The notes beneath the pieces were generated by a model that was not told where the DNA came from, searched no databases, and saw nothing but the letters and a program-made list of their open reading frames with translations. This document shows positions 35,521-59,278 of a DNA stretch of 64,000 bases, piece after piece. The DNA comes from an uncultured Eudoraea sp. (GTDB lineage Bacteria; Bacteroidota; Bacteroidia; Flavobacteriales; Flavobacteriaceae). The translations under genes were made by a program, and so were the position numbers. The stretch lies in the NCBI RefSeq assembly GCF_947258925.1, contig NZ_CAMYKG010000002.1:1-64000 (forward strand), written 5' to 3'. Within the stretch, counting starts at the first letter, position 1. Each line of letters opens with the position of its first letter.

Positions 35521-36621
35521 TTATTTCACTAAGGATTCTGAAGCTTTTATTATTTTTTCCTGATGGTTAATGGATTCCTGGTGAATGGCCTTAAACATTT
35601 TGAGGACAAATTCCTCGCTAAGCCCTTTGGATTCTCCTTCGAGTATCATTTTACCCAAAATAGCATTCCATCGATTGGTTTGAAGTACGGCAACGTTTCG
35701 CTGTTTCTTCAGTTCCCCGATTCCATCAGATACTTTCATCCTTTTAGCAAGTGTATCTATTAGCTGATTATCGATGATATCTATTTGTGCCCGAAGATTA
35801 CTAATTTTTTGGTTATAATCTGCTTCCTCATCTGTTTCTTTTCTGATCTTTAAATCTTCCATGATTTGAATTAGCCTTTTTGGTGTCACTTGCTGTGCAG
35901 CATCACTCCAGGCATTATCCGGATCATAATGCGTTTCGATCATTAGACCATCAAAATTAAGGTCGAGAGCAGTCTGTGAAATATCAAAAATCATATCCCG
36001 ATTTCCACTAATATGTGATGGATCATTGATAAGAGGCAGATCAGGAAATTTTGTTTGAAGTTCAATGGCCATTTGCCATTCGGGAATGTTGCGGTATTTG
36101 GTTTTTTCATAGGTCGAAAAACCACGGTGAATTACCCCTAAATGCTTGATATTTGCCTTTGACAATCTTTCTACTGCACCTAACCACAAGGACAGGTCCG
36201 GATTGACAGGGTTTTTCACCAGAACAATCTTATCTGTGCCTTCTAAGGCGTCTGCAATTTCCTGGACTATAAAAGGGCTTACAGTAGACCGGGCGCCTAT
36301 CCAGAGTAGATCCACATCATGTTCCAAGGCAAGATCCACATGAGTTTTATTGGCGACTTCAGTTGCTGTCTTAAGTCCGGTTTCTTCCTTTACTTTTTGT
36401 AACCATTTTAGACCTATTGCTCCTACGCCCTCAAAGTTGCCAGGCCTGGTTCTAGGCTTCCAGATACCTGCTCTATAATAATTTACATCAGTATCTTTAA
36501 GCTCATGAGCTATTCCCAATACCTGATCTTCAGTTTCTGCACTACACGGTCCTGCAATTACCAGCGGATGTGGTAACTTCATGTCATCTAACCATGATCT
36601 TAGTTTTTTCGAATTCTCCAT
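35521..36621 (-). CDS. DAHP synthase / chorismate mutase fusion
   Basis: 366-aa bifunctional enzyme. An N-terminal DAHP synthase of the KDO8P-synthase-like type (about 1-260, VIAGPCSAET, IWKPRTRPGNFEG, INDPSHISGNR) makes the first shikimate intermediate. A C-terminal AroQ chorismate mutase (about 275-360, LRAQIDIIDNQLIDTLAKRMKVSD) converts chorismate to prephenate. So the first and branch-point steps of Phe/Tyr synthesis are in one protein. Last gene of the attenuator-controlled operon, two bases after prephenate dehydrogenase. Confidence 0.94.
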   Translation of the reverse strand: MENSKKLRSWLDDMKLPHPLVIAGPCSAETEDQVLGIAHELKDTDVNYYRAGIWKPRTRPGNFEGVGAIGLKWLQKVKEETGLKTATEVANKTHVDLALEHDVDLLWIGARSTVSPFIVQEIADALEGTDKIVLVKNPVNPDLSLWLGAVERLSKANIKHLGVIHRGFSTYEKTKYRNIPEWQMAIELQTKFPDLPLINDPSHISGNRDMIFDISQTALDLNFDGLMIETHYDPDNAWSDAAQQVTPKRLIQIMEDLKIRKETDEEADYNQKISNLRAQIDIIDNQLIDTLAKRMKVSDGIGELKKQRNVAVLQTNRWNAILGKMILEGESKGLSEEFVLKMFKAIHQESINHQEKIIKASESLVK

Positions 36622-36623
36622 TA

Positions 36624-37490
36624 TTATCTGTCTTTGTTATTTTGTGGTATTCCTTTTAAAATTGCTTTTATCTTATTCGTATTATCCATTTCATTATATA
36701 TGCCTTCAAAATTATCGTCTAATAGCTTTTGTTTAAAATCTTCCAGATTTTGAATATATTCATCCAGAGTCTCTACAACATTTTCTTTGTTCTGTTCGAA
36801 GATAGGCGTCCACATAGCCGGTGAACTTTTAGCCAATCTCACCGTACTTTCAAAACCACTGCCCGCCATATCAAATATGTCGCGCTCATTTTTCTCCTTT
36901 TCGATCACCGTTTTTCCTAGCATAAAAGAACTAATATGTGAAAGATGAGAAACATACGCAATATGCTTATCATGAGCCTCAGGATTCATGTATCTTATGC
37001 GCATACCTAACCTACTAAAAATACTTAATGCGCGTTCCTGAAGCTTAAATGCCGTTTTTTCAACTTCACAAATTATGTTTGTTTTGCCTTCGAACAAACC
37101 TGAAATTGCTGCGGAAGGCCCGGAAAATTCCGTTCCGGCAATAGGGTGTGAAGCCAAAAAGTTCCGTCTTCTTTTATGATTTATTATCCTTCTGCATATT
37201 TCTGATTTTGTTGATCCTGCATCTATTACCAGGGTATCGTCATTTATCGCATCTAATAATTTTGGAAGTTCATGTACAATAGCGTCTACCGGGATACTAA
37301 TATAAAGGACATCAGCCTCTGCCAATTCCTTTGCACTTGCAATCCCATCTATCAATTCTAGCTCTATAGCTTCTTTAAGGTGGGCGTCACTTGCATCTAT
37401 TCCATAGATTGATATTTCCGGATAATGGGATCTTAAATCCCTGGCCAATGAGCCACCAATTAATCCGATACCTACGATTACAACATTCAT
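36624..37490 (-). CDS. tyrA: Prephenate dehydrogenase
   Basis: 288-aa NAD(P)-dependent enzyme making 4-hydroxyphenylpyruvate, the tyrosine precursor. N-terminal Rossmann motif GIGLIGGSLARDL, and the family blocks SHPIAGTEFSGPSAA and HLSHISSFMLG. It has no ACT domain, so feedback control may be mainly at the attenuator. Third gene of the Phe/Tyr operon. Confidence 0.93.
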   Translation of the reverse strand: MNVVIVGIGLIGGSLARDLRSHYPEISIYGIDASDAHLKEAIELELIDGIASAKELAEADVLYISIPVDAIVHELPKLLDAINDDTLVIDAGSTKSEICRRIINHKRRRNFLASHPIAGTEFSGPSAAISGLFEGKTNIICEVEKTAFKLQERALSIFSRLGMRIRYMNPEAHDKHIAYVSHLSHISSFMLGKTVIEKEKNERDIFDMAGSGFESTVRLAKSSPAMWTPIFEQNKENVVETLDEYIQNLEDFKQKLLDDNFEGIYNEMDNTNKIKAILKGIPQNNKDR

Positions 37491-37567: not shown

Positions 37568-38713
37568 TCAAAATCTTTGGATTGCCTCTTGAATCTTTTC
37601 TTCAGTTACACAAAGTGAAAACCGAATATAGCCCTCACCATTGCTTCCAAATATGGTCCCTGGTGCAATAAAAATATTTTTATCCTGCAATATTTGATCT
37701 ATAAAAGCCTCTGAATCCGCTGATCCATTGGGCAGTTTCGCCCATACAAACATGCCCACGGCATTGGTGTCATAAGTGCATTGCAGTTTATCCGCCAACT
37801 GATACATCAACTTTCGGCGGGATTCATAGATCTTATCCAAGTGAAAAAACCATTCTTTTCCACTCTTTAATGCTTCTATAGCACCTTTCTGAATCCCATA
37901 AAACATTCCGGAATCCATATTACTTTTTACTTTTAATATTGCATCCAGATTGAGTTTGCTTCCTAAAACCATACCAACTCTCCAGCCCGCCATATTGAAA
38001 GTCTTACTGAGGGAATTAAGTTCCAAAGCCGTCTCAGAGGCTCCTTTTACACTTAAAATACTCAATGGATTCTTACTTAATACAAAGCTGTAAGGATTGT
38101 CATTTACCAATAAGATGCTATTTTTTTTTGCGAAGGTAACCAATGCTTCCAACTGCAAAGAACTTGCAGTAGCACCTGTAGGCATATGGGGGTAACTTAC
38201 CCACATGATTTTTACTTTAGACAGGTCTTCCTTCCCTAGTTTCTCTAAATCAGGAAACCATCCGTTTGCAGCAAGCAGGTCATATTGCCTTGGAATAGCT
38301 CCAACAAGCTTTGTGACCGCAGTATATGTTGGGTAACCAGGGTTGGGAATCAAGACTTCATCCCCCTGGTTTAAAAAGGCCATGCTAATATGCATGATCC
38401 CCTCTTTTGAACCCATTAGCGGCAATATCTCCGAAGACGGGTCTACATCAACATTAAATTTTTCCTTGTAAAAGTGAGCAATGGTTTCTCTTAATTCTGG
38501 AAGCCCCTGATAACTTTGATACTGATGTGCACCTGCATGCCTTATTGACTCCTGAAAAGAAGAGATTACAGCTTCGGATGGGGGAAGGTCCGGGCTACCT
38601 ATCCCTATATTTATTATGGGCTTACCCGAAGCAGCCATACTTCTGACTTCCCTCAATTTTATAGAGAAATAGTACTCCTCTACTGTTTGTAAACGATCAG
38701 CCGTTTGTATCAT
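37568..38713 (-). CDS. Class I/II PLP aminotransferase (aromatic)
   Basis: 381-aa fold-type I aminotransferase. The PLP lysine is in SLSKTFNMAGWRVG (about residues 230-243). The NPGYPTY and SYPHMPTGA blocks and the C-terminal RFSL arginine are visible. Between prephenate dehydratase and prephenate dehydrogenase, it most likely transaminates phenylpyruvate and 4-hydroxyphenylpyruvate, though such enzymes are often annotated as aspartate or LL-DAP aminotransferases. Its start overlaps the upstream stop by four bases. Confidence 0.85.
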   Translation of the reverse strand: MIQTADRLQTVEEYYFSIKLREVRSMAASGKPIINIGIGSPDLPPSEAVISSFQESIRHAGAHQYQSYQGLPELRETIAHFYKEKFNVDVDPSSEILPLMGSKEGIMHISMAFLNQGDEVLIPNPGYPTYTAVTKLVGAIPRQYDLLAANGWFPDLEKLGKEDLSKVKIMWVSYPHMPTGATASSLQLEALVTFAKKNSILLVNDNPYSFVLSKNPLSILSVKGASETALELNSLSKTFNMAGWRVGMVLGSKLNLDAILKVKSNMDSGMFYGIQKGAIEALKSGKEWFFHLDKIYESRRKLMYQLADKLQCTYDTNAVGMFVWAKLPNGSADSEAFIDQILQDKNIFIAPGTIFGSNGEGYIRFSLCVTEEKIQEAIQRF

Positions 38714-39537
38714 AAACGCGCATTTTTATATTCACCCAAAACTTTAAAATCTTCAGACATAATATCTAATAAGGATTTGGCTTTTTCAAAATGATTATAA
38801 CTATCAAAAGTAATATCCACAAAAAATGCATATTTCCATGGCGTTTCAATAATAGGCAACGATTGTATTTTAGTTAAATTTAAATTACAATCGCTCATAA
38901 CATTTAAAACGGTCGCCAGACTACCTCTTTTATGATCTGTAACAAACCTTATCGAGGCTTTGTTGATCACTTCTTTCGGAAGTTCTTTATTTTTTGTTTT
39001 GACGATAATAAATCTTGTGGAATTATTTTTAATAGTTTGAATTTCAGGTGCAATGACTTTTAAATCATAAAGTTCTGCAGCTACTACAGGTGCAATGGCT
39101 GCTATACCCACTAAACGCTTTTCCTGAATTTGCTTCGCCGTTTCTGCCGTATCCACATCTTCAACCATTTTAATATGCGGTTGTGTCTTTAAATATTCCC
39201 TGCATTGTAACAGGGCCATAGGGTGTGAGCGTACTTCCTTTATTTCGGACAGTTGCTGCCCTTCCAAAGCCATAAGATTATGATGAATATTGAGATAATG
39301 TTCACCAATAATGTGCAAATTATTGTGGTAAACCAAAGCATAGTTCGGAATAATAGAACCTGCAATTGAATTTTCTATGGCCATTATGCCTTTATCAGCC
39401 TTTTTGTTCAGTAATTGGTCTACCAATTTATGAAACGACAGGCATTCAACTAAATCTATATCATTCCCAAAGTAATTCAAAGCTACCTGGTGATGATTAG
39501 ACCCTTTAATTCCCTGTATGGCTATTTTAAGACCCAT
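38710..39537 (-). CDS. pheA: Prephenate dehydratase
   Basis: 275-aa enzyme that turns prephenate into phenylpyruvate. The catalytic region covers about 1-180 (MAIENSIAGSIIPNYAL, NSTRFIIV with the catalytic TRF). A C-terminal ACT domain (about 195-275, KRGSLATVLNVMSDCNLNLTKIQSLPI) binds Phe for feedback inhibition. No chorismate mutase part is fused; that activity is on the last gene of the operon. First gene after the Phe/Tyr attenuator. Confidence 0.95.
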   Translation of the reverse strand: MGLKIAIQGIKGSNHHQVALNYFGNDIDLVECLSFHKLVDQLLNKKADKGIMAIENSIAGSIIPNYALVYHNNLHIIGEHYLNIHHNLMALEGQQLSEIKEVRSHPMALLQCREYLKTQPHIKMVEDVDTAETAKQIQEKRLVGIAAIAPVVAAELYDLKVIAPEIQTIKNNSTRFIIVKTKNKELPKEVINKASIRFVTDHKRGSLATVLNVMSDCNLNLTKIQSLPIIETPWKYAFFVDITFDSYNHFEKAKSLLDIMSEDFKVLGEYKNARL

Positions 39538-39553
39538 TTGGTTAAACTACTAA

Positions 39554-39581
39554 CAAAAAAAAATCCCGTATTTCACGGGAC
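39554..39581 (-). terminator. Attenuator terminator of the Phe/Tyr operon
   Basis: On the minus strand: TCCCGT, loop GAAAT, ACGGGA (39564-39580) followed by nine T (39555-39563). It lies 17 bases before the pheA start codon and after a Phe/Tyr-rich leader peptide. Its 5' arm also belongs to an antiterminator pairing, so it is a regulated terminator. Confidence 0.9.
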
Positions 39582-39624
39582 CTCATTTGATATATTTTTC
39601 ACAATAATCTAAAACAGTCCCATG
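39574..39624 (-). promoter_or_regulatory. Antiterminator of the Phe/Tyr attenuator
   Basis: CAUGGGAC (39617-39624, inside the last codons of the leader peptide) can pair with GUCCCGUG (39574-39581). This is eight base pairs with a single U-G. The second arm overlaps the 5' arm of the terminator, so the two structures exclude each other. A ribosome stalled on the upstream Phe/Tyr codons leaves the first arm free and would favour read-through; a ribosome that reaches the stop codon covers it. Confidence 0.82.
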
Positions 39625-39680
39625 CTTCTTTTAAAAAAGAAGTAAAAATAGAAACCGTTCCAAAAATAATTGCTTGTCAT
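39609..39680 (-). CDS. pheL: Phe/Tyr-rich leader peptide of the aromatic operon
   Basis: A 23-codon frame starting at ATG 39680 and ending at TAG 39609. Seven residues are Phe and three are Tyr. The core reads FYFYFFF (codons 10-16), with another YF at codons 5-6 and a final F. One Trp is also present. The chance of such a run directly before an intrinsic terminator and the prephenate dehydratase gene is very low. It acts in cis as a sensor of charged tRNA-Phe and tRNA-Tyr, and the peptide itself needs no function. The symbol is by analogy with the enterobacterial leader. Confidence 0.88.
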   Translation of the reverse strand: MTSNYFWNGFYFYFFFKRSMGLF

Positions 39681-39937
39681 TTTCTTTTAATTATAGGACT
39701 AAGGTAAATATTAAATTTAAAAATTAAAGTTTATAAATATCTTTTTCTGAATATTCACCATATTGAACAATTCTTTGCGGATAATTTTTTTAATATTATT
39801 TTTTTTTGAGAATTTGTCATTGCCTGAGAGCAAGGAAAACTTGTTAAGCATATACAATCCTTACAAAGTCGTTAAAAATATTCCAAGTTAATTCGGGCTT
39901 AAGTGCGCAATGTTTATTTTTACTGAAAATATTTTAC

Positions 39938-40834
39938 ATGTCGTTAAAGGTTAAAAATATCTCCAAGAGTTATGGTGCGCAAAAAGCACTAAAGGGTGTG
40001 TCCTTTGCCATTCAGAAAGGTGAGATTGTAGGTTTCCTGGGGCCAAATGGTGCAGGAAAATCTACTATGATGAAGATTCTGACAACGTATAGTAAAGCAG
40101 ACGATGGTGAAGCCTATGTAAACGAATTTGATGTAAATTCCCAGTCAAGGCAAGTACAAAAAAGCATAGGTTATTTACCCGAGCATAACCCACTTTACAA
40201 AGACATGTATGTAAAGGAATATTTGGCTTTTAATGCAGAAGTTTATAAAACATCTAAAAGTAGAATCCCTACTGTAATTGAACAAACCGGTTTAGGTGGA
40301 GAAGCACATAAGAAAATCGGGGCATTGTCCAAGGGATACCAGCAACGTGTGGGGCTTGCCTCTGCCTTATTGCACGATCCTGATGTACTTATCCTGGATG
40401 AACCTACCACGGGACTGGACCCCAATCAACTCATTGAAATAAGAAAACTTATTAAACATATTAGTAAAGAAAAGACCATTTTGTTATCCACACATATCAT
40501 GAAAGAAGTGGAAGCGGTTTGTGACCGGGTGCTTATTATCAATGAAGGCGTCCTGGTAGCCGATAAAAAACTTGCAGATCTAAGAGAAGAAAATGAACAA
40601 ATAATAGAAGTTGAGTTTGATTATCGAGTGGAAGAAGCTTTCCTTAACAAACTTCCCCATGTCCTAAAAGTAGAAAACACTGGTGGCTTCGTGTATGAAA
40701 TTACCTTTGGGACTTCCAAAGATATGCGCTCTGTAGTTTTTGATTTTGCACATGATAATCAACTCAAAACACTACAACTTAGTCGAAAAAATAAAAATCT
40801 CGAAAGCCTGTTCACCGAATTGACCGCTACTTAA
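39938..40834 (+). CDS. gldA: ABC transporter ATPase GldA
   Basis: 298-aa ABC ATP-binding subunit. Walker A GPNGAGKST at about residues 35-43, signature LSKGYQQRVGLA near 129, Walker B LILDEPTTGLDP near 150, and the H-loop STHIMKE. The C-terminal third matches GldA of flavobacteria, where it works with GldF and GldG in gliding. Those partners are not in the window. The stop codon is one base from that of the convergent serine hydrolase. Confidence 0.9.
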   Translation: MSLKVKNISKSYGAQKALKGVSFAIQKGEIVGFLGPNGAGKSTMMKILTTYSKADDGEAYVNEFDVNSQSRQVQKSIGYLPEHNPLYKDMYVKEYLAFNAEVYKTSKSRIPTVIEQTGLGGEAHKKIGALSKGYQQRVGLASALLHDPDVLILDEPTTGLDPNQLIEIRKLIKHISKEKTILLSTHIMKEVEAVCDRVLIINEGVLVADKKLADLREENEQIIEVEFDYRVEEAFLNKLPHVLKVENTGGFVYEITFGTSKDMRSVVFDFAHDNQLKTLQLSRKNKNLESLFTELTAT

Positions 40835-48899: not shown

Positions 48900-48959
48900 C
48901 TCACAGCACGTTCTATAAAATTATCAAGAAATTAGGTGTCGGTTATTTCCTATACTCGT

Positions 48960-49075
48960 GTTATCTAGCCCTGTTTGCGCAAAAAGCATAATAGTGGTAG
49001 AATGTAGCACCTTCTTTATAGTTAAAGGGTTGCTAAGGTTTCAACGGGTCTATTCCCTACACCTTTCTTGATAAC
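48960..49075 (-). ncRNA. SAM-I (S-box) riboswitch before metH-metF
   Basis: The minus strand shows the S-box core: GTTATCAAGAAAGG, then a GGGAATAGACCC helix, GAAACCTTAGCAACCC, and the AAGGTGCTA block. Closing stem P1 is GTTATC (49070-49075) with GATAAC (48960-48965). It senses SAM and should turn the methionine synthase operon down when SAM is plentiful. No obvious U-tailed terminator follows, so the output mechanism is unclear. Confidence 0.93.
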
Positions 49076-49101
49076 AATGTCAATGTTGTAATGAACTGGC
49101 A

Positions 49102-52664: not shown

Positions 52665-55600
52665 TTATCCTTTCTCCGCAATACGCAAAATATCCCCAAA
52701 AACTCCGCGTGCCGTTACGGCTGCTCCGGCTCCTGCTCCTTGTATAACCAAAGGATGTTCACCATATGATTCTGTATAAATCTCTATAATAGAGTCTGAA
52801 CCCTTTACCTGGCCCAAGGCACTTTCTTTGGGAACAGATATCAGTTTTACGTCTAGTTCACCTCGCTCTTTTTGCAAATCCCCATGTAGATCTCCCACAT
52901 ATCGAAGGACATGATTGGGCTCCTGATTATCTTTAATTTTATTAAAAAAATCATCCAGGATATCCAGGTTATCCAAAAATTCCAACACAGTGCCTTTACG
53001 AAGCGATTCGGGGATGAGATTTTGGATGGAAATATCATCAAATTCATTTTCAAGATCCAATTCTCGAGCTAAAATCAATAATTTTCTTCCTACATCATTA
53101 CCGCATAAATCTTCCCTGGGATCAGGCTCAGTAAATCCATTATTAATGGCTTCATTTAAAATTGCAGAAAAAGAAGATTCCCCTTCCGAAAAAGTATTAA
53201 ATATATAGCTCAGAGACCCTGAAAAAACACCTTTTATTCGCGTTATGTTTTCGCCAGACAGGTGTAAAAGTTTAATGGTATCTATCAATGGCAAACCTGC
53301 ACCAACATTGGTTTCATATAGGTATTGTTTCTGTTTTTTTGCCAACTCGTCCCTAATCAAGCTATAGTAATCAAACCCCAGCGTATTGGCAATTTTATTC
53401 GAAGAAACCAAATCGAATCCATTTTCGATAAAATTAAAATAATTAGCCACAAAATCCTGACTTGCCGTATTATCAATGGTAATTAAATTTTCAAGATGAT
53501 GCATTCTGGCATAATCAAAGAGATCCTCAATAGTATAAGACATCCCCTTTTCTTGGATATCCTCACGCCAAGATTCTGAGATACCACTTTTGTTTAAAAG
53601 TAATTTTCTTGAATTCGCCAAAGCAAAGATATTTAGATTAATGCCTTTCCTTTCTTCTATTCCTTTTTTCGATACTAATATCTGATCTACAAGGGTGCCG
53701 CCTACGTTTCCATGTCCAAAAATTGCAAGGTTAACTTTTTTACTAATTCCAAAAATTTGACCATGCATTACATTAAGTGCCTTGTGAAGATCAGATTTCT
53801 TTACCACCAGGCTCACATTCTTTCCTGTTATGGTATTATTAAACAACAGGGGCACTATTTGGTTCTTAATTAAAGCATTATACGGTTTGTGAAAAGTGCT
53901 TAAATCCTGACCAACTATTGAGATAACGGAAACTTCACTTACAATGGTAATCGCATTAATATCACGTGATTGGAAATCGCTTTCAAACTCCATTTCCAAC
54001 GCCCTTTTTGCCAAAAGGGCCTTTTCTGAATTCACCACCAATCCTATTCCTCGCTCAGAAGATCCCTGGGAGATGATACTCACACTGATATTATTCTGGC
54101 TAAGCGTTCTGAAAATTCGCGCATCAATACCTACCTTCCCCAGCAACCCCCTACCTTCGAGGTTAATTAATGCATCGTTTTCAATAACAGATAATGATTT
54201 TATTCCTTCCTTGCTGGACTTCGCACTGATAAGTGTCCCCTCGTTGTCATTGTTAAAGGTATTGAGTATCCTTAGTGGAATATTCTTTTCGATTAACGGA
54301 ATAATGGTCTTTGCGTGTAAAATAGTTGCTCCAAAGTTAGCAAGTTCATTAGCCTCACCATATGATAATTGCGCAATCCTCTGTGCTTCAGCAACATATT
54401 CGGGATTTGCTGTAAAAATACCATCTACATGCGTGTAGTTCTGAAGCTCTTCAGCATCCAAAAAATTAGCAATAAGGGAAGCTGTATAATTACTGCCATT
54501 CCGCCCAAGCGTAGTGGTTTCATCGGTCTCTGTTGATGCGATAAAACCCGTGATCAATGGCACCTCTTCTGTCTTTATTTTGGAAAATTCAAGAAGTACA
54601 TTTTCTCTGGATATCTCTTCCAGAACTTTTGCATCTCCATAAGTCGCATCTGTTTTTATCAACCGGCGGGTGTCAAGCAATTTTGCATTAATCCCTTCCC
54701 CTATTAGCAACTTTGTCATCAACTTGCCCGAAATAAGTTCCCCATATGCCAGAACCTGGTCTTTTATTTTAGCACTATAGTCTCCAAGCAGGGCAACTCC
54801 CTCAAACAATTTTACCAATGCACTGAATTCTTCTGAAAGATTGATATTCTTAAAAGTATGCTTTTGATATTGTTCAAATCTCCCAAATTCCTCTCTATAG
54901 TCTATTCCTTTTGCCGCCTTGTCTAATATGGTTTCGAGTTGATCAGTCCCTTTTTCACGCGCTGACAAAACCACGGCAATGTTTTCGTCATTTTTTACTT
55001 TTTCCTTTATAATTTCTAATACCCTACCCAGGCCTTCTCCATTAGCAAGTGACTTTCCGCCAAATTTTAGAATTTTAATTCTTCCGGATTTACCATTTTT
55101 GTCAAATATCCCTTTAAGTAGCTGCTGCATTTGTTCATATTCAATAAGAAATGCATCATGTCCGTGCAGCGATTGTATTTCACCATAAGTTACATTGCTA
55201 TTGGCTTGGGCTAATTGTTTAAAGGTGTCCTTGTTCTCATTCGCGGTAAAAAAAAGATCAGAATCTACCCCAATAATATGAATATTGGTAGGGCTGTTTT
55301 GTAAATTAACAAATGCATCTTCCCCTTCTCTGGTAATATCTATTGTCTTTAATAACTGGTTAGTCAATTTGTAAGCGGAAAGCTCAAATCGCTCATTCAG
55401 TTTTTTACCATGATGAGACAGCCAACTCTCCACATTAAAAACCTGGAGTTCTTCATTTGTGCTTCTCTGGAACCGTGCTTTAAAAGACTGTGGCGTTCTA
55501 TAACACAGCATAGCATGCATTCTGGCATCGTGTACCGGTTGCTTGGAATTAACAAGAAACTGCTCCTGAATCTGACAATTGGCAATAAGCCAATCTGTTG

Positions 55601-56069
55601 ATTTCCAATCGGCTGCAACAGGAATCAAATGTTCTGTTAGTAAAGGATTCATCGCCGCCATTTCCCAGGCAATTCCACCACCTAAAGAACCGCCTATTAA
55701 GGCATAAATCCGTTCTATATGAAGCGCTTTCAAACCTTCAATAAAAATCCTTGCAACATCACCAGCAACAAAATCTTTATAGTTATCAATTACAAATCCA
55801 TCGTAACCATTACCCGGAATATTGAATGCCAGTACCGTATACTTATTTGTGTCAATACATTTACCGTCACCTATCAAAGTGGCCCACCATCCTTCATAGC
55901 CAGCTACATTTGAATTTCCGGTTAAGGCATGATTAACCAATACAATTGGAGCGGAATGCAATTCCTGACCAAAAAGTTGATAGGATAACTCCAAATCTTG
56001 CACTACCCCACTATAGGTTTTATAAGAGGGGATTTTTATACTTTGAAGTTTTGTATTCTGGTCTTTCAT
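52665..56069 (-). CDS. thrA: MetX - aspartokinase - homoserine dehydrogenase fusion
   Basis: 1134-aa three-module protein. Residues about 1-325 are an alpha/beta hydrolase of the homoserine O-acetyltransferase (MetX) family with nucleophile GGSLGGG, acid GVDSD and HGHD histidine. Residues about 333-770 are aspartokinase (KFGGKSLANGEG) with ACT domains. Residues about 790-1134 are homoserine dehydrogenase (IFGHGNVGGTLVDQ, GVFSGSLSYIFNTF). One chain thus covers aspartate phosphorylation, homoserine formation and its acetylation. It lies downstream of metY in the SAM-riboswitch operon. Confidence 0.92.
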   Translation of the reverse strand: MKDQNTKLQSIKIPSYKTYSGVVQDLELSYQLFGQELHSAPIVLVNHALTGNSNVAGYEGWWATLIGDGKCIDTNKYTVLAFNIPGNGYDGFVIDNYKDFVAGDVARIFIEGLKALHIERIYALIGGSLGGGIAWEMAAMNPLLTEHLIPVAADWKSTDWLIANCQIQEQFLVNSKQPVHDARMHAMLCYRTPQSFKARFQRSTNEELQVFNVESWLSHHGKKLNERFELSAYKLTNQLLKTIDITREGEDAFVNLQNSPTNIHIIGVDSDLFFTANENKDTFKQLAQANSNVTYGEIQSLHGHDAFLIEYEQMQQLLKGIFDKNGKSGRIKILKFGGKSLANGEGLGRVLEIIKEKVKNDENIAVVLSAREKGTDQLETILDKAAKGIDYREEFGRFEQYQKHTFKNINLSEEFSALVKLFEGVALLGDYSAKIKDQVLAYGELISGKLMTKLLIGEGINAKLLDTRRLIKTDATYGDAKVLEEISRENVLLEFSKIKTEEVPLITGFIASTETDETTTLGRNGSNYTASLIANFLDAEELQNYTHVDGIFTANPEYVAEAQRIAQLSYGEANELANFGATILHAKTIIPLIEKNIPLRILNTFNNDNEGTLISAKSSKEGIKSLSVIENDALINLEGRGLLGKVGIDARIFRTLSQNNISVSIISQGSSERGIGLVVNSEKALLAKRALEMEFESDFQSRDINAITIVSEVSVISIVGQDLSTFHKPYNALIKNQIVPLLFNNTITGKNVSLVVKKSDLHKALNVMHGQIFGISKKVNLAIFGHGNVGGTLVDQILVSKKGIEERKGINLNIFALANSRKLLLNKSGISESWREDIQEKGMSYTIEDLFDYARMHHLENLITIDNTASQDFVANYFNFIENGFDLVSSNKIANTLGFDYYSLIRDELAKKQKQYLYETNVGAGLPLIDTIKLLHLSGENITRIKGVFSGSLSYIFNTFSEGESSFSAILNEAINNGFTEPDPREDLCGNDVGRKLLILARELDLENEFDDISIQNLIPESLRKGTVLEFLDNLDILDDFFNKIKDNQEPNHVLRYVGDLHGDLQKERGELDVKLISVPKESALGQVKGSDSIIEIYTESYGEHPLVIQGAGAGAAVTARGVFGDILRIAEKG

Positions 56070-57449: not shown

Positions 57450-57629
57450 AATGTTCGTTTCTATGTATTCAAATTGAATACTGGTTCTTAATACAATTCT
57501 TTCAGCGACTTTCTCGTCGCTCTTTGGTCAAAAATAATAGTGCAATCCAAGCCTCGGCGCTCTTAAAGGCAACCAGGCATGATTAAAATGTTAATAAGAA
57601 AGATAAATTACTAGGGGTAATTCTATATT

Positions 57630-57737
57630 GTTATCTGTCACACAATACATGTGATAGAATTTAGCACCTTCTCCGTATTTGACACAAAGGGTTGCTAAGG
57701 TTTCATAGGGTCTATTCCCTCCACCTTTCTTGATAAC
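57630..57737 (-). ncRNA. SAM-I (S-box) riboswitch before metY
   Basis: Minus strand GTTATCAAGAAAGGTGGAGGG, an AGACCCTATGAAACC helix, TTAGCAACCC and AAGGTGCTAAATTC form the S-box core. P1 is GTTATC (57732-57737) with GATAAC (57630-57635), and P4 is the TCACA/TGTGTGA hairpin. It should shut off metY-metX/thrA-metZ when SAM is abundant. No clear terminator follows. A separate hairpin AGCGAC/GTCGCT (57504-57521) lies near the start codon and may take part. Confidence 0.95.
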
Positions 57738-57767
57738 TTTTCAACAAGTGATTGAACTTAGTAAAAG

Positions 57768-59072: not shown

Positions 59073-59215
59073 AAATAAATATGTTTTAAAAAAATTAAAT
59101 TGATTTGACGAATGCCGAAAAAGAAGTTTACAACTCAGATTAATCTGTAGAAACTGCTTTAGCATTTTTTCTTTTACTGAACCTGAATGATCTTAAAAAA
59201 ATGTTTTTATCCGAT

Positions 59216-59268
59216 CAGAAGCTGGGTTCTGTATAAGAGGTTGCAATCAGTCAAATCCCTCCTCTTAT
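59216..59268 (-). ncRNA. Structured metK leader, unrecognised element
   Basis: Starting only a few bases after the predicted transcription start, the minus strand shows two structures. One is an 8-bp stem ATAAGAGG/CCTCTTAT (59261-59268 and 59233-59240) around a 20-base loop. One base later comes a 5-bp hairpin CAGAA-CCCAGC-TTCTG (59216-59231). The GGG of the first loop could pair with the CCC of the second, a possible pseudoknot. It is not an S-box and I do not recognise it as another SAM riboswitch class. About 145 bases separate it from the metK start. Confidence 0.5.
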
Positions 59269-59278
59269 TTAGTGTTGA

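Follow-up and report, generated by a model that had tools for sequence, protein, structure and literature searches.

A Phe- and Tyr-rich leader peptide and a probable transcription attenuator upstream of the pheA operon in Eudoraea

How might a flavobacterium adjust the expression of its phenylalanine and tyrosine genes to the supply of these amino acids? The question is raised by a short region in front of pheA in an uncultured Eudoraea, a genus of Flavobacteriaceae. The window, that is, the whole stretch of DNA that was analysed, comprises the first 64,000 nucleotides of contig NZ_CAMYKG010000002.1; among the matches listed, the pheA nearest to that of the window is 91% identical and also comes from an uncultured Eudoraea. 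The original prediction placed here a leader of 23 codons with seven Phe and three Tyr, which could be read directly on the minus strand: MTSNYFWNGFYFYFFFKRSMGLF contains 7 Phe, 3 Tyr and 1 Trp, Phe or Tyr taking up 10 of the 23 codons, and its ATG lies 143 bases upstream of that of pheA. We conclude, from sequence and in silico folding, that the region is very probably (a probability of about 0.92) a ribosome-mediated transcription attenuator of the operon formed by pheA, an aminotransferase gene, tyrA and a gene for DAHP synthase/chorismate mutase. The Trp codon, a possible protector hairpin, a promoter-like -7 box and the extent of the spread go beyond what had been predicted. All features are listed in Table 1.

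Table 1. Features of the attenuator region and of the neighbouring genes in the window
Feature	Positions	Strand	Remarks	Basis
Promoter-like -7 box	39699..39706	minus	TACCTTAG; one mismatch to Bacteroidetes consensus TAnnTTTG	
Leader peptide ORF	39609..39680	minus	23 codons + TAG, MTSNYFWNGFYFYFFFKRSMGLF	sequence
Region 1, 5' arm of possible protector	39651..39663	minus	codons F-W-N-G-F	RNAalifold consensus
Apical stem of possible protector	39625..39642	minus	CUUCUUU/AAAGAAG	window fold
Region 2	39609..39624	minus	pairs with region 1 (39609-39620) or region 3 (39616-39624)	
Weak A/T hairpin within antiterminator loop	39589..39609	minus		window fold
Region 3, antiterminator 3' arm	39574..39582	minus	overlaps terminator 5' arm; 9-bp helix with 39616-39624	
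Putative intrinsic terminator (regions 3 and 4) + nine T	39555..39584	minus		sequence, scan, alignment
pheA, prephenate dehydratase	38710..39537	minus	275 aa	Pfam PF00800, E 1.4e-58
Class I/II aminotransferase	37568..38713	minus		Pfam PF00155
tyrA, prephenate dehydrogenase	36624..37490	minus		Pfam PF02153 + PF20463; NCBIfam NF006307 above cut-off
DAHP synthase fused to chorismate mutase	35521..36621	minus		Pfam PF00793 + PF01817
ABC transporter ATPase	39938-40834	plus	next gene beyond leader	

The four genes had been proposed to form a Phe and Tyr operon, and their identities (dehydratase, aminotransferase, prephenate dehydrogenase, DAHP synthase-chorismate mutase) hold by Pfam, the ACT domain of pheA scoring below Pfam's cut-off. 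An aminotransferase homologue was present at all 80 close pheA loci (the best 80 of 532) and at 40 of the 48 wide loci checked, and tyrA, or at least its start, at 75 of the 80 close loci, the gene often being truncated by the end of the flank. By these assignments, the leader stands upstream of its cognate biosynthetic operon. Behind it, the segment TCCCGT-GAAAT-ACGGGA is followed by nine T (39580-39555; stem 39580-39575 with 39569-39564, T run 39563-39555), as had been predicted, and it was the sole terminator-like site returned by a scan of 39300-40000 (shuffles: mean 0.5). An intrinsic terminator is thereby predicted between leader and pheA. As the gene that follows beyond the leader runs on the plus strand, this terminator closes no adjacent upstream gene of the same strand. 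The 8-bp antiterminator predicted from the last leader codons was also found, and folding of 39574-39632 extends it to 9 bp (-16.3 kcal/mol, z -4.5, with none of 200 shuffles as stable).

If the region is an attenuator, the leader frame should be conserved in relatives and the two stems should covary, as the original prediction had proposed to check. A close set was composed of the window and the best 80 of 532 relatives (Flavobacteriaceae genera and MAGs), that is, 81 loci; the window's own copy (L001) and a locus at the same place (L082) were left out of the counts. Loci were scored for an ORF in which 5 or more of 8 residues are aromatic, together with a terminator within 260 nt. All 81 loci had this combination, compared to none of 810 dinucleotide shuffles. 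By itself, an aromatic ORF was encountered in 54 of the 810 shuffles (5 of 8 aromatic) and on the reverse strand at 5 of the 81 loci: such an ORF is not rare in DNA of this kind, while its combination with a terminator is. A wider sample of 69 loci was drawn from the family and the class, L120-L123 and L125 being left out as they lie on contigs that match those of close loci in length and range; the ORF was found in 58, the terminator in 54 and both in 52, compared to both in none of 690 shuffles. In a second wide set of 86 pheA upstream regions, window included, from which L119 was also left out, though needlessly, leader and terminator were found in 68 regions (the window among them). The other 18 had no such pair by the criteria used, one of them (L147) failing as its contig ends; one region that passed (L158) resembles chance, with a helix score of 12. 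All 68 wide leaders hold Phe and Tyr, and their aromatic richness is kept while length (16-40 codons) and flanking residues vary.

The aromatic leader is thus conserved throughout the close set. Its length is 23 codons in 75 of the 81 leaders, and a codon table was drawn up from the 74 distinct 23-codon leaders, the six with other lengths being left out. Codons 2-4 are variable, every one of these leaders has Phe at codons 12, 14 and 15, and codon 7 is Trp (45), Tyr (18) or Phe (11), and nothing else. Phe and Tyr occur together in 81 of 81 close-set leaders, and a Trp codon occurs in 51. At codon 23, the last before the stop, the window and 28 of the 81 leaders have Phe, Leu being commoner; a Phe at this place counts against the attenuator, as a stall there should favour termination. 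The leader stop is TAG (39609-39611 in the window) in 59 of the 74 distinct leaders, a preference that may be due to pairing of this TAG with region 1 in the consensus fold.

The start of the leader has an A at -3 at 69 of the 81 loci, and an SD-like motif precedes it at 2. This context fits the A-3 preference and the absence of SD described for F. johnsoniae in sections of PMC6847099, in which the -7 consensus is given as TAnnTTTG. A TAnnTTWG box was found before the leader at 75 of the 81 loci, at 69 of them 25-27 nt before the ATG, and in 65 of 1620 mononucleotide shuffles; a strict match to TAnnTTTG was present at only 1 of the 81 loci. We take the box to be part of a presumed promoter.

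Covariation was measured on an alignment of the 81 close-set sequences (80 distinct rows), and both stems proved to covary. For the terminator, 99.0% of cells were paired and 7 of 9 pairs were changed on both sides; for the antiterminator, these values were 91.3% (shuffled mean 90.2) and 5 of 8. The covariation score of each was above all 500 shuffles, in a test that overstates covariation because the sequences share kinship. At its two outer positions the antiterminator fails to pair in 34 and 14 of the 80 rows. A helix slid by +1 gave 12 doubly changed cells compared to 10 for the antiterminator, yet only 44.5% of its cells were paired.

Complementarity persists across the wide set. The mean match between leader tail and terminator arm was 18.4 for the 68 sequences' own pairs, compared to 14.0 for swapped pairs and 11.5 for shuffled tails; the maximum of 10,000 permutations was 15.6, and in 65 of the 68 sequences the own match was above the sequence's swapped mean. 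Common descent and base composition may still inflate such matching somewhat. When the leader tail was recoded with synonymous codons, drawn for every sequence from the codon usage of five window ORFs, the antiterminator match fell in 81 of 81 close-set leaders (from 18.8 to 13.0) and in 62 of the 68 wide ones (from 18.4 to 13.4). Own-versus-swapped matching and recoding both reduce the worry about kinship. As recoding keeps the peptide and yet lowers the match, RNA pairing appears to be selected apart from the peptide, and the choice of codons is tuned to it. The spacer between stop codon and terminator, by contrast with its conserved look by eye, was weak against shuffles, folding better than its shuffle mean at 54 of the 81 loci, and its hairpin was dropped as a conserved element.

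For the protector hairpin, two pairing registers were counted. Its apical stem was paired in 95.7% of cells with no pair changed on both sides, and its covariation in the close alignment was not above shuffles, 135 of 500 reaching the observed value. Codon choice raises the pairing of region 1 over that of synonymous codings in 76 of the 81 close-set leaders, and in the wide set the protector match was 13.9 for own compared to 12.1 for swapped sequences, a value that none of 10,000 permutations attained. As its covariation in the close alignment does not rise above shuffles, we regard the protector as possible only, and it is the weakest part of the attenuator.

The effect of ribosome position was modelled by folding the transcript through region 3 with a ribosome-sized block at each codon, for the 81 close-set leaders. 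With the downstream edge of the block at +11, the mean antiterminator probability was 0.84-0.98 for A-site codons 2-16 and, within these, 0.86-0.98 for codons 4-16; it was 0.26 for codon 17 and 0.00 from codon 18 onwards. The aromatic run ends at codon 16, and in this model the fold switches state near the end of the run. A larger footprint (edge +14) moved the drop one codon earlier, to a mean of 0.26 at codon 16, which makes that codon borderline. In silico, antiterminator and terminator exclude one another; a ribosome at the stop codon hides the 5' arm of the antiterminator, and one halted at the control codons leaves this arm free. Helix scores of 15 or more were reached by 58 wide leaders, and in 51 of these 8-17 nt separate the last codon of the aromatic cluster from the antiterminator arm. 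When no ribosome was placed, the antiterminator was favoured in 51 of the 81 leaders, at a mean probability of 0.60 (0.80 in the window), and the protector was not dominant, its probability reaching a mean of only 0.21 (window 0.14). This suggests that the protector may be weak and that an untranslated leader might read through.

Taken as an attenuator, the region would work as follows. RNA polymerase would start just upstream of the 23-codon leader and transcribe the four genes as one messenger, and a ribosome translating the leader would follow, presumably coupled to the polymerase. When charged tRNA-Phe or tRNA-Tyr is short, the ribosome would halt on the aromatic codons 5-16; a shortage of tRNA-Trp might also be sensed, at codon 7. 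The halted ribosome would cover region 1 and leave region 2 free to pair with region 3, a pairing that would block the terminator, and all four genes of the operon would be transcribed. With plentiful amino acids, the ribosome would reach the stop codon and cover region 2; region 3 would then pair with region 4, and transcription would end before pheA. The operon is expected in this way to respond to Phe or Tyr starvation.

Other explanations were weighed against the same observations. Exit-tunnel arrest by a nascent chain is known from the TnaC or Erm leaders, and the aromatic peptide could itself be the sensor, its arrest responding to a small molecule and being followed by the same RNA switch. 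This would account for the conservation of N8 (70 of the 74 distinct leaders) and G9 (57 of 74), which are not aromatic; however, pairing with region 2 can account for the conserved N-G codons, although this pairing is itself only partly supported, and both the swaps among Trp, Tyr and Phe at position 7 and the changing flanks and lengths of wide leaders that stay rich in aromatic codons tell against a sensor peptide, which we consider very improbable. RNA structure and covariation would also suit a ligand-binding RNA, of riboswitch or T-box type, to which the ORF is incidental. Yet the aromatic frame is there at all 81 close-set loci, and leader and terminator diverge jointly, staying complementary and aromatic. 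Moreover, no Rfam match reached the gathering cut-off in 39450-39800 (T-box, trpB motif and others included), the best one below it at the leader being the trpB motif (25.8 compared to 59), and none did at the leaders of 20 further loci, of roughly 150 with a leader; two Flavo-1 matches in one of the loci (L148) lie outside its leader. We give a ligand-binding RNA very little credence.

The terminator, lying between the promoter-like box and pheA, would release an RNA of about 140 nt, which leaves room for an unregulated premature stop or for a separate small RNA or peptide gene. What argues against both is that the antiterminator is under selection, as judged from codon choice, covariation and own-pair matching, and that the element stands before pheA at 81 of 81 close-set loci (only that place was searched); an explanation of this kind is highly improbable. 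As for a chance aromatic ORF in A/T-rich DNA beside an ordinary terminator, T-rich DNA does yield aromatic ORFs, as the shuffles above illustrate, yet not one of the two series of shuffles combined such an ORF with a terminator, and the leader is conserved in relatives down to the codon level, so that we regard chance as negligible. A ribosome-mediated attenuator remains the preferred reading.

How far this attenuator extends was assessed with two kinds of search. An RNA model (R1), searched over 296 genomes of the order, gave a match at E <= 0.01 in 135. Most R1 matches among those listed score below about 42 bits, a range that also holds genuine leaders, such as one of 36.4 bits directly before pheA (G064); a search anchored on pheA took the place of R1. 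Within the window's own genome, R1 had 34 matches up to E 10, of which only the pheA one is clear (128.1 bits; next 34.8). The figures for spread apply to genomes with such a pheA. In a draw at class level (a class which we take to be GTDB's Bacteroidia), pheA was matched at 1e-10 in 26 of 99 genomes. Outside the family, 24 places were found to include an aromatic ORF (at least 5 in 8) in 16 cases and leader plus terminator in 10, the chance-like L158 being one of them. Going by these sequences, the leader is present well beyond Flavobacteriaceae.

In a draw at phylum level, pheA was matched in 102 of 118 genomes, and the sequence was inspected at 27 places in genomes that belong to other classes. 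Two of them, L210 and L213, have leader plus terminator; their antiterminators match weakly (12 and 14). The other 25 (L216-L240) gave no ORF with at least 6 aromatic residues in 8; one (L226) has an ORF with 5 in 8, about 1.1 kb before the end of the stretch. Places L221-L240 were scanned for ORFs only, and L239 is cut by a contig end. No other pheA match from another class scores as high as those of L210 and L213 (238 and 220 bits, followed by 183), a hint that operon and attenuator may have moved together by horizontal transfer.

A broader reading would make the element an ancient pan-aromatic attenuator, in which the charging of tRNA-Phe, tRNA-Tyr and often tRNA-Trp is read together, the common DAHP step and both branches are governed, ribosomes follow the polymerase closely, and the device is widespread in those Bacteroidia that have this pheA. 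We find the case for and against it evenly balanced. Messenger RNAs of the group lack Shine-Dalgarno sequences, according to parts of PMC6847099 and PMC9976891. If the broader reading is true, it follows from the selection on codon choice that, in this SD-less group, ribosomes run close enough behind the polymerase for classical attenuation; if the mechanism itself is as outlined, coupling would be tight enough for attenuation there, which a reporter can test, and the leader would be a natural sensor of two or three amino acids. The arrangement would also supply a rule by which unannotated leaders can be sought in many genomes.

The same genome contains further elements of this sort. A Bacteroid-trp match of 71.8 bits contains a Trp-rich leader, MKIRVVNTWWWNNLRLKS, before a long ORF (contig 20; L193, L243), and a His-rich leader, MKIQNTHHHLYTCAQAR, precedes hisG and is followed, by eye, by a hairpin and a T-rich tail (contig 19; L194). 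A Thr-rich ORF ending NTTTTPLG was noticed by eye before an aspartokinase-homoserine dehydrogenase gene (contig 15; L241); no evident terminator was seen behind it by eye, and it is perhaps a translational attenuator. Together, these leaders suggest that the pheA attenuator is probably one of a set. For the operon of a TPP-enzyme (acetolactate synthase), no convincing leader was seen before the ORF that we take to be ilvD.

Three SAM riboswitches were also observed within about 10 kb on the minus strand of the window (48958-49077, 57628-57739 and 59149-59270). Two belong to RF00162 SAM and one to RF01726 SAM-II, and the presence of two Rfam classes on one pathway cluster is worth recording. 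The genes of this cluster have domains of homocysteine S-methyltransferase, Cys/Met PLP-enzyme (two), aspartokinase-homoserine dehydrogenase and SAM synthetase. Also on the minus strand, 52665-56069 encodes a single protein of 1134 aa with alpha/beta hydrolase, amino acid kinase, ACT and homoserine dehydrogenase domains.

Among known systems, the enterobacterial pheA leader (RF01859 Phe_leader) combines a short Phe-rich leader, a terminator and an antiterminator before pheA, and the window shares with it a Phe leader peptide element in front of this gene. The likeness in geometry that had been predicted is there; membership is not, since the leader reaches 17.6 bits where the family's cut-off is 55. 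Here, moreover, Tyr codons (and Trp codons in the 51 close-set leaders) are mixed with those for Phe, and beyond phenylalanine the operon serves tyrosine synthesis and the first common step. The E. coli ilvGMEDA and thrABC leaders carry codons for more than one end product, and are comparable in this respect; the mix of Phe, Tyr and, in part, Trp is what sets the present leader apart. Bacteroid-trp (RF01692), a putative cis-regulatory RNA of Bacteroidetes, shares the genome with the pheA leader and differs from it in its codons; it was absent from the matches at the pheA leader, also with the threshold relaxed to E 10. It dates from 2010 (PMC2864571) and has been compared with the E. coli trp leader (PMC6414381), as far as the relevant excerpts of these papers go.

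Amino-acid attenuators had been held to be little described in Bacteroidetes. They are indeed hardly studied, yet the pheA element was already flagged: a 2021 paper on Flavobacterium psychrophilum, as represented by its main-text section, presents strong indications that operons for amino acids are preceded by leader-peptide attenuators, and 5' elements of pheA and hisG that are conserved in other Flavobacteriaceae and have no Rfam hits (PMC9723704). Its pheA element is very probably the one analysed here; leader sequence, codons and antiterminator are absent from that main-text section. Short ORFs resembling attenuator leader peptides in long 5' UTRs are mentioned for Bacteroides thetaiotaomicron in a portion of PMC7366714, and a comparative attenuator survey of 2010 is cited in a passage of PMC4833913. 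For the Phe/Tyr leader itself, no description was found among the papers listed from the open-licence PMC literature. Given the precedents of PMC9723704 and Bacteroid-trp, the kind of system is already known, and what is new here concerns its anatomy, a sensor that mixes Phe and Tyr (and Trp), evidence that the choice of codons serves the switch, and the spread beyond the family: the map is extended rather than redrawn.
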